From the IMG/VR virus record IMGVR_UViG_3300025286_000176, positions 1 through 20,601 of that record: 20,601 bases of DNA; one strand, 5' to 3'. Below are positions 14,634-20,601 of this stretch, in pieces. Each line of letters starts with the position of its first letter. The stretch's first letter is position 1. The notes under the pieces are model-generated. The model worked only from the letters and a program-made list of their open reading frames with translations. It was not told the origin of the DNA and searched no databases. The stretch is from a virus. The position numbers and the translations under genes were made by a program.

Positions 14634-16571
14634 CTACGCTATCACATAATCGTCACATTTGGAGAACGACTGACCGTGTCTAACGGCTATGTCCGCCCAG
14701 ATTGCAACGACCAGTTTAACCAGTCGATATTCCGCCTTTGAATAGGGGTCTATGGTGATATCCACACCCTGCCAGTGACCAATCAGGAGGTCCGACCAAT
14801 TGCCAAAGATAACCGTGGCAGTTGATGGGGCCGGGACCTGGTTGCTCAAATGCATGGGATAACCGTTGACCATTCCGTTTTCGTAGATGAACCGTGCCGT
14901 ATTGGCGGCAATCTCGGTTACCTTCATCTTCGCAATGACTCCCGCCCCTGCAACATAGGAGAGGGACCCGCTCAACGCATTATCAACCGCAACCTCCTTC
15001 TCCATGTTCACAACATCCGTATAGGGAGAGGACGTTGCTGCAACATCGGCAACGTTGGTCTGGCCGGTAATACCCGTGGGTTGTTCTGTTCCTGTGCCTG
15101 AAATGGCTGCCAGGTCCTCGGCAATTGCCAGGACTTTAACCATGTCATCACGGATTAAACCCTCCACGTCCAGTGAACCCTGAGCCAACAACTGCTTGCT
15201 AACCTCACTGTAAGTGCCGAGCGACTTGGGTGAGAGTGTCACCTGGTCAAATGTCGCCTGACTCTCGGTAATGGCAGTGGTCTCGTCCGTTAACCAGTAA
15301 CCGGTTGCGTTTGTGGCAAGTCTTGGAATCGCCACGTCACCAACCAAGCCGTTAAGCACGGTGGCACCGGTTTGCTGGACAACGGATTTATTCCGCAGGG
15401 CATCAATGAAGTTGGTGCCGAGTAGGTCCGTTGCAACCGTGCCCCCCCCACCAACAGCGGTGGAGACATCGCGCTTGGCAAAGTTTGAGTTTGCCAACAC
15501 ATCGGTTGGGATGATAAGGCCAGGATTTGGCCGCCCATAACGTTTGGCTGCCGCTTCGCTAACTTCACCCTCGAAACCACTCACCCGGCCCTTTTCACAA
15601 TAGGACCTGACAGCACGCAACAGGGAGAAGTCTTTGGCCTCCTTATCGGTCAAGCCGATTTCACCCGTGTCCTGCTTGGTGGGTTCGTTCTTCAAATGGT
15701 TATCAAGTATCCACCGGGAAAACTCCCCGGCAGTCTTGCCGTCCTGGATTGCGTTATACGCATCATCCATGCAGTTGTAACGGGCACCCAGGCCCGTTAA
15801 CTCCTTGGAACGTTTTAACTCGGCATTGCGGGTGTTCTCCGCGATAACCTCAACGTTAGGAGTCTCTCTCTCTTGGACTACTTCAGACATAATAATTTTT
15901 TCCTTTTGTTGTGGTTGTTCTACGTCTACACCACGGCCAACTCCAACCGAGGGGTCCGCTGGCACCGGCACAACGGATAGCTCTAGAGGCAGGAACCGAG
16001 TGACGCGGAGAGTGTCCAAACCCTCCTCCGCCCGTTCCCTTACCGTCTTGAGGACATGATAGCCAATACTCGTTAACCGACGAATGCCGTCCTTCACGTC
16101 CCGGTAAATTTCCTGTGCCCTCTCGGACTTGGAGAAGCGCACAACGGCACGTCCCACCTTGTCCTTGTCTATTCGGGCTGACTCCACCACACCAATCTGG
16201 TCGTCGGTTTTGTGGTTTAATAAAAGGGGTGCCCCGTTGTTTAGACGGGTCAAATCTGCACTGCCCTCGGAATGGTCGAGGACTTCCATGTAACCATCCC
16301 GCTCAACGGGCAGCTCGGAGCTAAAGGCCAACTCCACCAGGTTGTCCTGTTCCAAGGCACGGGCCTCCGCCTGGACGGAACGATGTAGCAAAACCTTGAC
16401 ATCGCCCCGGGCCGGCTCCTCCTCCTCCTCCTCCTCGGCTTCCTCGGCCTCCTCCTCGGGGACGTATTCCTCCTCCTCGGGTTCCGGGGGGTTCTTCGCC
16501 ATGGTAATGGTCAGGGTCGTATCGTCCTCCTGAACATCCACAATGTGCCTCTCCTCTTTTAAGTCACTCAT
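14634..16571 (-). CDS. Prohead protease - HK97-type major capsid protein fusion
   Basis: A single 645-codon frame. Residues 28-53 are a Glu-rich, Pro-containing low-complexity stretch. Residues about 58-210 are an HK97-type (U35/S78) prohead protease: catalytic His in PLLLNHKTDDQIG (H120), Ser in RRLTSIGYHV (S168) and the family end LPLELSVVPVPADP (E197). Residues 228-645 are an HK97-fold capsid protein with a scaffold-like helical start (MSEVVQERETP), the mature-domain beginning around GGGTVATDLLG and the classical body (TGYWLTDETTAITESQATFD). The protease would cut the delta-like scaffold during maturation. An SD and ATG at residue 228 allow separate capsid synthesis. The start overlaps the portal stop by 8 bases. 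Fused protease-capsid genes are known in other phages; both domain calls are secure. Confidence 0.9.
   Translation of the reverse strand: MSDLKEERHIVDVQEDDTTLTITMAKNPPEPEEEEYVPEEEAEEAEEEEEEEPARGDVKVLLHRSVQAEARALEQDNLVELAFSSELPVERDGYMEVLDHSEGSADLTRLNNGAPLLLNHKTDDQIGVVESARIDKDKVGRAVVRFSKSERAQEIYRDVKDGIRRLTSIGYHVLKTVRERAEEGLDTLRVTRFLPLELSVVPVPADPSVGVGRGVDVEQPQQKEKIIMSEVVQERETPNVEVIAENTRNAELKRSKELTGLGARYNCMDDAYNAIQDGKTAGEFSRWILDNHLKNEPTKQDTGEIGLTDKEAKDFSLLRAVRSYCEKGRVSGFEGEVSEAAAKRYGRPNPGLIIPTDVLANSNFAKRDVSTAVGGGGTVATDLLGTNFIDALRNKSVVQQTGATVLNGLVGDVAIPRLATNATGYWLTDETTAITESQATFDQVTLSPKSLGTYSEVSKQLLAQGSLDVEGLIRDDMVKVLAIAEDLAAISGTGTEQPTGITGQTNVADVAATSSPYTDVVNMEKEVAVDNALSGSLSYVAGAGVIAKMKVTEIAANTARFIYENGMVNGYPMHLSNQVPAPSTATVIFGNWSDLLIGHWQGVDITIDPYSKAEYRLVKLVVAIWADIAVRHGQSFSKCDDYVIA
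15901..15907 (-). promoter_or_regulatory. Internal ribosome binding site for separate capsid synthesis
   Basis: AAAAGGA on the minus strand, 10 bases before the in-frame ATG at 15890 (MSEVVQERE). It lies exactly at the protease/capsid domain boundary in an A/T-rich patch unlike the surrounding coding sequence. This suggests that most capsid protein is made from this start, and only a little as the protease fusion. Confidence 0.65.
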
Positions 16572-18020: not shown

Positions 18021-18593
18021 TTAAAATCTCGCCTTTACGAGTCTCCCGGTGCCGTGCTTGTTGTCGGTCTGCCGCTTGGCCTCCTCCAGTTTTAACTTGT
18101 CCTCGTAGCGTTGCAGGAGGTCCGCCAATTCCTGAATCGGTATCTTGTTAATGGACCGTCCTCCAATGTTGTAACTCTCCATGTCCGAGGAGGCCCGTCC
18201 CTCCAGAATGCTCCTTATGGTCGAGACCATAACCCGTGCGTGGGTCCGTTGGTCGGTGGTGGCGGAGGTGGCCAGGGCATTGAGGTTGGCCTTGATAACC
18301 AACTTGCCCGAGTCAATCAGGAATCGCTCGGCGGACTTGGAGGAGTAGGCTTGCCACGCATAGGTGCCGGCAGTGTAATTGGTGGTGGTCGCAGCCGTTA
18401 CGTTGACCTCAAAATAACCGGCGGAGGAGTTGCCGGTGGCGGCAATGTTAAACCCGGTGCCGGTGTCGCTTCTAAAGGAATAATCCAGGGACCACCCATC
18501 TGCCGGGGTGTAGTCCACCACCGTCTTGTTAAACTTGAGTGTGTCCCCGGCAATTAACTCGTAAGGTTCGATTGTCGGTACAGTCGCCGCCAT
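18021..18593 (-). CDS. gpW-like head completion protein with an extra N-terminal beta domain
   Basis: A 190-residue protein located where lambda gpW lies, between terminase and portal. Residues about 113-175 (RTHARVMVSTIRSILEG, then IGGRSINKIPIQELADLLQR) show the helix - beta hairpin - helix pattern of small gpW-like connectors, including a G-R-S-I hairpin. Residues 1-105 are a beta-rich domain (GDTLKFNKTVVDYTPADGWS, TAGTYAWQAYSS) resembling the N-terminal docking sandwich of phage fibre/baseplate proteins, an unusual addition to a protein that is normally about 70-100 residues long. The ATG lies at the centre of a perfect 15-base palindrome and has no SD. The connector role is moderately sure; the function of the extra domain is unknown. 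Confidence 0.7.
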   Translation of the reverse strand: MAATVPTIEPYELIAGDTLKFNKTVVDYTPADGWSLDYSFRSDTGTGFNIAATGNSSAGYFEVNVTAATTTNYTAGTYAWQAYSSKSAERFLIDSGKLVIKANLNALATSATTDQRTHARVMVSTIRSILEGRASSDMESYNIGGRSINKIPIQELADLLQRYEDKLKLEEAKRQTDNKHGTGRLVKARF

Positions 18594-18626: not shown

Positions 18627-18797
18627 TCAAATAACACCCTTGCAGGGTCTGCCCCTCGGACGTGCCCCCGGTTTGGGTGGCTTGCTTGCGTTTGCCTGGG
18701 AGGATGCCTTTTTGGCCTCGCTTGTCCTGCTCCCCATGAGACTGCCAAGGTTCAACTTGGCACCACACTTGGGACACCTGATTGGTTTTTTAGCCAC
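18627..18797 (-). CDS. Small zinc-binding protein with AT-hook-like tail
   Basis: A 56-residue frame starting at GTG, one base after the stop of the 95-residue gene (TAACGTG). It begins (M)AKKPIRCPKCGAKLNLG, a CPKCG zinc-ribbon half. It then has a flexible Ser/Ala/Lys stretch and ends in KPGARPRGRPCKGVI, whose RPRGRP core is that of an AT-hook, the minor-groove DNA-binding motif; a third Cys follows. This frame is preferred over longer minus-strand frames in the same place because it has a coupled start, a zinc motif and natural composition. Likely a small DNA-binding regulator or terminase helper. Only two clear metal ligands plus one Cys are present, so it may need to dimerise to bind zinc. 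Confidence 0.6.
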   Translation of the reverse strand: MAKKPIRCPKCGAKLNLGSLMGSRTSEAKKASSQANASKPPKPGARPRGRPCKGVI

Positions 18798-18798
18798 G

Positions 18799-19086
18799 TT
18801 AATTGATTGTCAGTCCATCCTTGAGGTTGCCCTTTGCCGCGCCTGACACACCCCACTCCACCATGCCCCCGTCTATTATAATGGGGTCGGGGTCCGGTCT
18901 TTTGGCCTCCACGTTGGTAAACACCAACTCCGCCACCCGGGTCCCCTCTTTGTTTTGGATGGTAACAATCAACTCCCTCCCGATTGCCTCCCCACCGAGG
19001 AACTCGTTAATTGCCGCCGGCATTCCCTCATGGAAAAAGCCGGCCAAGTTAAAGCACGTTGCGCACGGTTTGTCTTTTGTTGTCAT
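18799..19086 (-). CDS. Unknown small protein with one CxxC motif
   Basis: A 95-residue protein whose ATG overlaps the upstream stop by 4 bases (ATGA). The N-terminus MTTKDKPCATCFNLAGFFHE has one CxxC pair and a His, possibly half a metal site. The remainder is a beta-rich domain (GRELIVTIQNKEGTRVAELV) followed by an Asp/Pro segment. There is no membrane region. Not recognised. It belongs to the row of small, coupled genes inserted between terminase and the gpW-like gene. Confidence 0.65.
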   Translation of the reverse strand: MTTKDKPCATCFNLAGFFHEGMPAAINEFLGGEAIGRELIVTIQNKEGTRVAELVFTNVEAKRPDPDPIIIDGGMVEWGVSGAAKGNLKDGLTIN

Positions 19087-19364
19087 ACTTCCCTCCCTTC
19101 CGCATGGGCAATCGCTTTATCAACGACGTCCTGCTCGTGCTTTGCTAAAAAAGCAGGCAAGGCCAGTATCTTCAACGCCTCCAACATTTCAGGCGCACTC
19201 GCTATCAAATGCGCGTTGGCCTCCTCTTCACCCTCTGGCCGGTCTGTCCGAATGTCCGCAACAACGTCGCTGCCGTCGCCGCCGCCTACCATGAGGCAAT
19301 CCTCCCCGTCGATTGTTGTTATTAACCACGGGCCGTTTGTGTGTTTTGTCATTTCAGTTTTCAT
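19083..19364 (-). CDS. Phage small protein with HTxGPW and NAHLIASAPEMLEAL motifs (Ea22-type region)
   Basis: A 93-residue protein in a widespread class of phage accessory proteins that open with HT(P/N)GPW and end with N-A-x-L-I-A-x-A-P-E-(L/M)-L-x-A-L. Both are visible here (TKHTNGPWLITTIDGED; EANAHLIASAPEMLEALK). The biochemical role of the class is not established. The first ATG (MKTEMTK) lies 6 bases past the preceding stop; the second at MTKHTNG is also possible. No SD is seen. A 17-base sequence before it is repeated before the 68-residue gene. Confidence 0.75.
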   Translation of the reverse strand: MKTEMTKHTNGPWLITTIDGEDCLMVGGGDGSDVVADIRTDRPEGEEEANAHLIASAPEMLEALKILALPAFLAKHEQDVVDKAIAHAEGREV

Positions 19365-19366
19365 GT

Positions 19367-19383
19367 TTTTTTATTTGTGGCTC
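19367..19383 (-). repeat. 17-base direct repeat, copy 1 (before the HTNGPW gene)
   Basis: GAGCCACAAATAAAAAA on the minus strand. Here it spans the last codons and stop of the Tat-like gene and runs to 3 bases before the start of the next gene. An exact second copy lies at 20237-20253. Confidence 0.8.
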
Positions 19384-19685
19384 AATGCCTTGTACTGTTC
19401 CCGGGTCTCCGGGGTTTGGTTTGCTGCTTGCCAATGTCCGCCATGGGGGCGTTGCTCGTAACTGTTCCACCACCCCCTAGCCTCTGCCAAATGGTAAAGG
19501 TTATCCAACTCATCAACGTCCAACTCCAGACCCCACCCGTTGACTGTGTACCCGTCCCACTCCTTTAACTGCTCGGCAACCTCTTGTCCACACTTAACTT
19601 GGTAATCCTTGCCCGGGCCTGCCTCCAGGCAGAGCGGGGAGAGTGTGGTTAGTCCCAACACCTTTAACATTGTTCTCCGTGTCAT
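19371..19685 (-). CDS. Small exported protein with Tat-like signal peptide, unknown
   Basis: 104 residues starting MTRRTMLKVLGLTTLSPLCLEA. The T-R-R-x-M-L-K core followed by a short hydrophobic stretch resembles a twin-arginine (Tat) signal peptide; a Sec signal is the alternative. The mature part has paired cysteines possible (C20, C30) and a Trp/Tyr/Asp-rich domain (GYTVNGWGLELDVDELDNLY, HLAEARGWWNSYEQRPHGGH). The start is chosen because AAAGGA lies 9 bases before this ATG, while an earlier in-frame ATG overlaps the upstream gene and lacks an SD. Export is unexpected for a gene between terminase and head genes; it could act on the host envelope or on superinfection. Family unknown. Confidence 0.6.
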   Translation of the reverse strand: MTRRTMLKVLGLTTLSPLCLEAGPGKDYQVKCGQEVAEQLKEWDGYTVNGWGLELDVDELDNLYHLAEARGWWNSYEQRPHGGHWQAANQTPETREQYKALSHK

Positions 19686-19708
19686 TTGTTTAGTTCCTTT
19701 CTGGTTAG

Positions 19709-20041
19709 TTATGCAACCGGGCAACCGTAGAGGTCCGCAATCCTTTTGGCCTCCTTGGTTGCTTTTGCCTTGCTTGTGAATAATCCCTTATTTACCCGCA
19801 AGTCACCTTGCACCAAATAAACAACAATCTTGCCGTTGCTTTTTTGTTTTCTAATTTCAACTTTCATTTTGTTCCTGTCTGGTTCTGGTTTGGTTTCTAG
19901 TCCCTCGCCGTGGCAGTTGGGGCATCCGTAGCGGCCAAGCCAATCCTGGTCGAACGAATGCCCACAACTGTGGCAAGGAGTTTTCAACTTGCTTCGCCGG
20001 TTGAATAACCCGGCGCATTTCGAGTTATTTAACTCCGCCAT
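19709..20041 (-). CDS. Zinc-ribbon protein, possibly with a separately translated C-terminal DUF2188-like domain
   Basis: A 110-residue frame whose ATG overlaps the preceding gene by 17 bases. Residues 24-45 hold a CHSC...CPNCHG zinc ribbon. From residue 59 a second unit begins at an internal ATG (MKVEIRKQKSNGKIVVYLVQ, then TSKAKATKEAKRIADLYG) resembling small DUF2188-type beta-hairpin proteins. AGGA lies 5 bases before this internal ATG, so a 52-residue product (19709-19867) may be made alone. Whether this is one fused gene or two in-frame genes cannot be told by eye. A role in DNA or RNA binding is plausible from the ribbon. Confidence 0.6.
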   Translation of the reverse strand: MAELNNSKCAGLFNRRSKLKTPCHSCGHSFDQDWLGRYGCPNCHGEGLETKPEPDRNKMKVEIRKQKSNGKIVVYLVQGDLRVNKGLFTSKAKATKEAKRIADLYGCPVA

Positions 20042-20231
20042 GCGGGAACAAATAGAAATCCTTGCGCTGGTTGCACCTCGGACACCTATCAACAGAGTTG
20101 CCGGTTCTCTTTGAAAACCGATTGTCAAATCTCAATGCAGTCTCAAACCAATTTGCATCACATCCGTTGCAATTGATGGTTTGCTCGTCGGTTGTTACTG
20201 CATCCAATTTCCAATTTATTTCAGTAATCAT
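20025..20231 (-). CDS. Small zinc-ribbon protein
   Basis: 68 residues with two metal-binding pairs, CNGC near residue 21 and CPRC near residue 50, spaced as in a zinc ribbon. The spacer is aromatic and basic (WFETALRFDNRFSKRT). It is the first gene after the terminase and the 105-base gap, so it would be the first served by any promoter there. It has no clear SD; AAAAACGAAAATG precedes the start. Small proteins of this kind are often transcription or packaging helpers, but no specific role is shown. Confidence 0.65.
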   Translation of the reverse strand: MITEINWKLDAVTTDEQTINCNGCDANWFETALRFDNRFSKRTGNSVDRCPRCNQRKDFYLFPHGGVK

Positions 20232-20236
20232 TTTCG

Positions 20237-20253
20237 TTTTTTATTTGTGGCTC
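20237..20253 (-). repeat. 17-base direct repeat, copy 2 (before the 68-residue gene)
   Basis: Exact match of the copy at 19367-19383, placed 5 bases before the ATG of the 68-residue gene. Here it is intergenic. It may be an A-rich translation leader, or a scar of recombination that added genes to this insert. Confidence 0.8.
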
Positions 20254-20278
20254 GGGCTTATTCCCTGCCGGTCCAAGT

Positions 20279-20307
20279 TACCTAACAGATAGCTTTTAGG
20301 CTGTCAA
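20279..20307 (-). promoter_or_regulatory. Weak promoter candidate in front of the accessory insert
   Basis: A perfect -35 box TTGACA (20307-20302) is followed 17 bases later by TAGGTA, a poor -10 box. An inverted repeat CCTAA-N10-TTAGG (20281-20300) lies between them, as an operator might. It sits in the longest intergenic gap (20232-20336). The good -35, location and repeat speak for it; the weak -10 against. Confidence 0.3.
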
Positions 20308-20336
20308 CCCCTTTTGGTGTTTTTTTTATATTTTTT

Positions 20337-20601
20337 TTAATGCCTGAAATTCCCAACAAAACCGCCCCCTTTCGGGGGTCTCTGCCTTTTGGGTTTCCTC
20401 TCCTCGTCGGTCTTGGGTGGCGCATCCTTTGCCCGGGCCAACTTGTCCAGGTTGGGGTTTAGAATTATCAGGGCCGCGTAGGCATAAATCCTGATGTCTA
20501 ACGCCTCGTTCCTTGCTCCGCCGCTTTTCTTGACCCAGGCCCGGGCCTTGACTCCGCGCTTGACGGAGGTAACGGCCTTCTCGCTTGTCAACTGGTTAAA
20601 C
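20337..20601 (-). CDS. Large terminase subunit, GpA type, C-terminal fragment
   Basis: The frame is open to the right edge (reading F-N-Q-L-T-S-E-K first), so only the last 87 residues are visible. The block FNQLTSEKAV ... ARAWVKKSGGARNEALDIRI YAYAAL is the characteristic C-terminal end of GpA-family terminases, whose large subunit cuts concatemers and drives DNA into the prohead. The fragment then has a Lys/Arg/Pro-rich tail (KPKRQRPPKGGGF). The ATPase and nuclease motifs would lie outside the window. Gene order (terminase, gpW-like, portal) supports it. Confidence 0.88.
   Translation of the reverse strand, partial: FNQLTSEKAVTSVKRGVKARAWVKKSGGARNEALDIRIYAYAALIILNPNLDKLARAKDAPPKTDEERKPKRQRPPKGGGFVGNFRH

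Follow-up and report, generated by a model that had tools for sequence, protein, structure and literature searches.

What is the role of a group of six small genes placed between the terminase and a head-tail joining gene of a phage, and what controls their expression? The question is raised by a 20,601-bp IMG/VR virus fragment, referred to here as the window, whose main genes all lie on the minus strand. Six open reading frames on this strand, g1 to g6, separate the C-terminus of the large terminase subunit gene (terL) from a gpW-like gene (Table 1). The initial annotation described them as a moron-like insert encoding mostly CxxC-motif proteins, which might work jointly as a set in taking over the host, in packaging or in evading defences. 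Little is understood of how phages acquire morons and of what holds these silent or active, and the mechanism of their acquisition has been called mysterious (PMC4378225).

The insert and its borders

The presence of six small genes between the terminase and the gpW-like gene was borne out by the open reading frames and by the family matches of the bordering proteins, and g1 to g6 are real genes, with homologues conserved across phages. As had also been claimed, the insert follows the longest intergenic gap of the window, which comprises 105 bp (20232-20336) and lies directly before g1-g6. Elsewhere in the window, at positions 14634-16571, a single frame of 645 aa encodes the prohead protease (Peptidase_S78) and the major capsid protein as a fusion.

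Table 1. Features of the insert, its borders and its control region in the window.
Feature	Position	Strand	Evidence and remarks
Left border: C-terminus of terL (gpA-type large terminase subunit)	20337..20600	-	Pfam GpA_nuclease 2e-11; phrog_15
-35-like hexamer TTGACA	20302..20307	-	TTGAC- conserved in most A/B relatives (leader alignments)
Proposed palindromic operator AAGCTATCTGTTAGGTA, 3 mismatches to the consensus AACCTAACWGTTAGGTT	20279..20295	-	lineage comparison
17-bp direct repeat GAGCCACAAATAAAAAA, leader copy	20237..20253	-	endpoint of the L003 deletion
g1, 68 aa, two CxxC	20025..20231	-	not seen outside strains identical to the window
g2, 110 aa, two CxxC	19709..20041	-	ribbon shared with lineage-B island L083
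g3, 104 aa	19371..19685	-	89% homologues in L004-L010
17-bp direct repeat, second copy, just before g4	19367..19383	-	L003 deletion comparison
g4, 93 aa	19083..19364	-	phrog_1273 (function unknown)
g5, 95 aa	18799..19086	-	family also in lineage B (L079)
g6, 56 aa, GTG start	18627..18797	-	always the last cassette; proposed autoregulator acting on the operator
Right border: gpW-like head-tail joining protein	18021..18593	-	phrog_5774 1.9e-36

A moron-like island of variable gene content

A search with the portal protein yielded 32 related loci. One of them (L018, portal 65% identical) has an empty site, with terL and the gpW-like gene about 30 bp apart, so that the insert of the window stands between genes which are adjacent in a relative. 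Wherever the portal is at least 79% identical and the interval is covered, an insert of about 1.0-2.2 kb is present and g6 is always its last gene, while the promoter-proximal genes differ among these relatives and g6 alone is constant. One contig, L003, equals the window over 8.2 kb except for 870 bp, which are missing exactly between the two copies of the 17-bp repeat; the deletion removes g1-g3 and places g4 behind the promoter, as seen in this single contig with the junction 43 nt from its end.

The description as a moron-like insert is upheld by the empty site and by a control region which is conserved in all g6-bearing relatives. Judged from the alignments, a promoter of its own is indicated by the -35 box, operator and leader conserved in 28 islands, and terminator-like sites are no commoner than in shuffled sequences. 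The GC content of the island is 0.505 versus 0.534, with 0.42 in g1, and in five relatives the island likewise lies below the rest of the locus, by 1.6-7.7 points. Extra genes between neighbours of a relative, an own promoter and variable presence are shared with the morons of lambdoid and Mu-like phages (PMC4378225), and a differing composition may be a further likeness. Those morons are usually single coding regions (PMC4378225), whereas the present insert is a multi-gene array with a control region common to several lineages and a constant last gene that is a probable regulator.

A conserved palindrome within the promoter region

In lineage A, terL is followed by TTGAC, a palindrome and a leader (GACCGGCAGG...; GGGAATAAGCCCGAGCCACAA in close relatives), and this control region is kept in most members whatever gene follows it, once per genome. 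In the window, the end of the palindrome, TAGGTA, forms a -10-like hexamer at a spacing of 17 nt from the -35 box (TTGACA-17-TAGGTA). Of the promoter candidate that had been proposed for the gap, the element itself is supported by its conservation among relatives; a generic sigma-70 scan found no promoter in 20232-20336, because the -10 hexamer is poor. Absence of an independent transcript, which the initial annotation had named as speaking against its reading, gains no support given this conserved putative promoter.

The palindrome is perfect in L014 and L017 (AACCTAAC-W-GTTAGGTT). Its distance to the -35 box differs between lineages A and B, and in lineages C, D, F and I it lies between good -35 and -10 boxes. 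The sites are two-fold symmetric and located within or overlapping a promoter; among 26 distinct sites, several show full symmetry in all 8 pairs, and at three pairs complementary changes occur on both sides, a symmetrical variation as expected for the site of a dimer. A chance palindrome was ruled out by the permuted-motif controls given below, and a host SOS box by the absence of the exact operator pattern from 388 Verrucomicrobiota genomes. When IMG/VR was scanned with the operator, about 30 of 47 matches had neither a promoter context nor a g6-like gene, a number which by a rough estimate is near that expected by chance. A longer palindrome with the same core (ACCTAAACCAAACAGTTTGGTTTAGGT) occurs without g6 in a microvirus-like contig of 6.2 kb (L097:5357-5374), which seems to be a different small phage.

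Co-occurrence of the palindrome with g6

The palindrome, with at most 3 mismatches, stands just after terL in each of the 28 islands that contain g6 and have their interval covered, whereas eight relatives without g6 show 5-8 mismatches to it. Since they fall in three lineages, these 28 islands are not independent. A wider comparison therefore used g6-like loci that had not been chosen by their operator (L150-L155 and L157), together with L158, whose contig was also in the operator scan; L152 and L153 were counted once, giving seven loci. Their summed mismatches amount to 10, compared with 36.2 +/- 2.5 for 279 permuted half-sites (lowest value 25), and six of the seven have at most 2 mismatches, which no permuted motif reached.

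The position of the site relative to the genes varies among these phages. In L095 and L150, the g6-like gene and the small genes beside it diverge; the promoter spacer of these neighbours is taken up by the palindrome, and a variant of it lies in the promoter of g6 itself (L150: TTGACA-AACCTAACGTTAGGTTA-TATAAT). In L155 and L158, one site precedes the g6 match by 30-39 bp, and a second is found at a distance of about 1.4 kb. At a blastp threshold of E 1e-5, lineages A and B have no protein other than g6 in common with the D, F, H and I loci; these loci are partial and cover 8-15 kb each, so that a further shared gene may lie outside them. In two phage groups, the g6-like gene has a C5 DNA methyltransferase-like gene downstream (L060:3064-3816, L154:5574-6404).

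The g6 protein and its likeness to known DNA-binding proteins

The g6 sequence suggests an N-terminus resembling a zinc hairpin, with a CPxC motif, and a basic tail resembling an AT-hook. Every aligned member has one CPxC rather than the two CxxC pairs of a zinc ribbon, and in the tail of the window protein (RGRPCK, compared with RGRPRK) a lone cysteine replaces the arginine of most relatives. No DNA-binding fold is recognisable in this protein of 56 aa with one CxxC, and its AlphaFold model, of low confidence (pLDDT 67), was too uncertain for a fold search. Neither INPHARED phages nor PLSDB plasmids contain a match. A function as terminase or packaging factor was rejected, given the absence of a family match and the occurrence of g6 outside the slot between terL and portal (L154, L157, L158).

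Several known families come close to parts of the protein. Lar-like restriction alleviation proteins (phrog_6422) give a weak, marginal match (best value 0.002, in 7 of 20 members), as does Brz (best value 0.005, far below the curated cut-off), and both matches probably arise through the CPxC part, i.e. through the CxxC motif only. The tail shares with AT-hook proteins and with the GRPR arm of Hin-type recombinases, which is a minor-groove arm, a PRGRP or GGRPRK core in a basic flexible context. Beyond this core, the likeness to Hin-type recombinases consists of a weak match to a DNA invertase PHROG (0.026), and in contrast to AT-hook proteins, the putative site of g6 is a specific 17-bp palindrome and not merely AT-rich DNA.

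Further likenesses are chromosomal. A widened g6 profile matched 21 of 388 Verrucomicrobiota genomes, mostly through its second half only, which in the loci examined corresponds to the tail of DUF2442-like proteins, three of them with the domain confirmed. Their genes (L182-L193) encode a GGRPRK tail and have an AACCYAA-type site in the promoter, and in L184 the DUF2442-like gene adjoins a DUF4160 gene. The related sites lie between -35 and -10, with summed mismatches of 31 compared with 45.8 +/- 3.0 for permuted motifs, none of 279 being as low. These operons are candidates for autoregulated toxin-antitoxin operons. The DUF4160/DUF2442 pair DhiTA of Dickeya is a validated toxin-antitoxin system which represses its own promoter (PMC8198452). 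The likeness to DhiTA concerns this repression; that of the tail was read from the Verrucomicrobiota proteins, which end in SxxRKxAxSRxNGxxGGRPRK and have a related promoter palindrome. Unlike this pair, g6 has a CPxC head, no Pfam DUF2442 match and no DUF4160 partner, and it does not fall among the DUF2442 (DhiA-type) antitoxins. Taken together, the shared tail, the promoter sites and the self-repression of DhiTA point to the tail as the part that would bind DNA.

These chromosomal cases also bear on an alternative, in which island and promoter are as described, but a regulator of the host or some other phage repressor recognises the operator, and g6 is a passenger travelling with the control region for a different reason. 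Such a role would fit the very small size of g6 and its place as the most distal gene of the operon in lineages A and B; the recurrence of one operator in different phages could be due to a host factor, and the Verrucomicrobiota DUF2442 operons have similar operators. However, the exact operators are absent from the 388 genomes, the tail is present in the chromosomal cases too, on a regulator-like protein of their own, and at the sensitivity used no protein but g6 occurs in every phage group that has the operator. We consider this alternative unlikely, though it is the strongest of those weighed here.

With regard to the host, a search of bacterial genomes with the portal protein found no prophage of the window's lineage, only distant relatives. 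A phage contig near-identical to the window encodes a protein of prepilin type that matches N_methyl and DUF1559 weakly (L040:5756-6706, equal to G003:24756-25706). As possible hosts, this unusual cargo and the DUF2442 cousins suggest Verrucomicrobiota or their relatives.

Exchange of cassettes between lineages

By searching with g6, a second lineage, B, was found (L058/L059 and L076-L089), the TerL of which is only 24-31% identical to that of lineage A and which also differs in its gpW and portal proteins. Lineage B has the same slot, operator and leader, g6 as the last gene and many of the cassettes of lineage A. The best-shared cassette proteins are 81-97% identical between A and B, and in the loci compared, DNA matches (67-88% identity) are found only inside the island. 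Homologues of g2, g4, g5 and g6 of the window occur in lineage-B islands, including a gene 92% identical to g4 (L175) and a g5-family gene immediately before g6 (L079). Outside the island, tail-fibre-like proteins are 40-81% identical between the lineages, with 40-71% for large ones (L042:1877-5047 in A_G005 and L148:4172-7330 in B_G406) against terminases below 31-32%, and these matches suggest common hosts and an exchange of host-range genes between A and B.

The same observations could describe an ordinary hypervariable hotspot, whose genes are read only within the late operon and whose palindrome acts as a signal for recombination or packaging. In its favour, every gene has the same orientation as the late operon, cassettes are exchanged, and the deletion is bounded by leader and repeat sequences that are shared. 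Against this view, which we regard as improbable, stands the location of the palindrome: it is flanked by good -35 and -10 boxes in lineages C, D, F and I, and it lies in the divergent promoters of L095 and L150.

Motifs and functions of the other cassettes

The initial annotation counted three zinc-ribbon proteins with CxxC pairs among the six. Two CxxC pairs are present only in the proteins of 68 and 110 aa (g1 and g2), the pairs of g2 (TPCHxCGxxFDQxxLGxYGCxNCxGEGL) being conserved in L083, while the 56-aa protein has the single CPxC described above. A lone CxxC in the 95-residue protein is present as reported, but it is absent from homologues that are 80-86% identical, and zinc motifs as a common theme of the cassettes are not supported. 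The N-terminus of g3, read by eye, resembles a twin-arginine signal (MTRRTMLKVLGLTTLSPL), and this protein may be exported. In searches of single cassettes against Pfam, PHROGs and PADLOC, the only matches were phrog_1273 for g4 and a weak one to a tail-collar family, and the AlphaFold model of g4 was too uncertain for a fold search. Two relatives contain a cassette of 176 aa with an HExxH-like motif (HETIH) and no family match (L005:1074-1604, L008:2603-3133).

None of g1-g6 matched a packaging family or a PADLOC defence-system family. A fixed set acting together is not supported: the content varies by strain, L003 lacks g1-g3 and only g6 is constant, and the search for the same small genes in other phages returned a varying set, the outcome that the initial annotation itself had named as counting against its proposal. 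A jointly acting zinc-ribbon set appears highly improbable, since, despite the CxxC pairs of g1 and g2 and CxxC cassettes in relatives (L011, and 77 aa in L014), its members do not travel together, most exchanged cassettes have no CxxC and PADLOC gives no match.

A putative autoregulated island

We favour, with reasonable though not high confidence, the explanation that the insert is a moron island with its own control region and with g6 as its autoregulator. Exchangeable accessory genes would be plugged in between terL and the gpW/portal genes, and the control region after terL, i.e., the -35 box, the 17-bp palindrome and the A-rich leader, would drive the cassette set. Two or more g6 molecules may bind the palindrome via the basic, AT-hook-like C-terminal tail and thereby block or tune the promoter, with the CPxC part as a putative zinc-held or dimerising head; repression rather than activation is suggested by where the site lies in the promoter. 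As g6 would be made from the island itself, it would limit island transcription in a negative feedback, which would allow accessory genes to be swapped without upsetting the phage.

The other cassettes would be passengers, gained and lost as recombination takes place through the shared leader sequence, and the likeness of the control region among different phages would let recombination through it replace them. The insert and the empty site, the conserved operator and its co-occurrence with g6, the exchange between A and B and the deletion between repeats are seen directly in the genomes compared, and from these we infer the binding of g6 to the operator, repression, zinc binding and an expression of the island apart from the late operon. 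In the strain of the window, an operator with 3 mismatches, the altered tail and the poor -10 hexamer indicate that the circuit may be weak or relaxed.

On this basis, g6 is probably the switch of the island promoter, of a kind not found in the catalogues searched. It is an even bet, in our estimation, that its tail (about 25 residues, SxAKxxSSxxNGxxGGRPxK) constitutes an undescribed minimal DNA-binding module with a palindromic operator of its own, common to chromosomal autoregulators of toxin-antitoxin type and phage morons, and that module, operator and leader together form a portable docking site for accessory genes, exchanged among lineages whose structural genes are unrelated or very distantly related. 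One conserved control region, one candidate regulator and a defined DNA site in many otherwise unrelated uncultured phages would make the regulation and exchange of morons directly testable, and the operator and g6 motif may serve as a sequence handle for accessory-gene islands in otherwise unannotated phage genomes.
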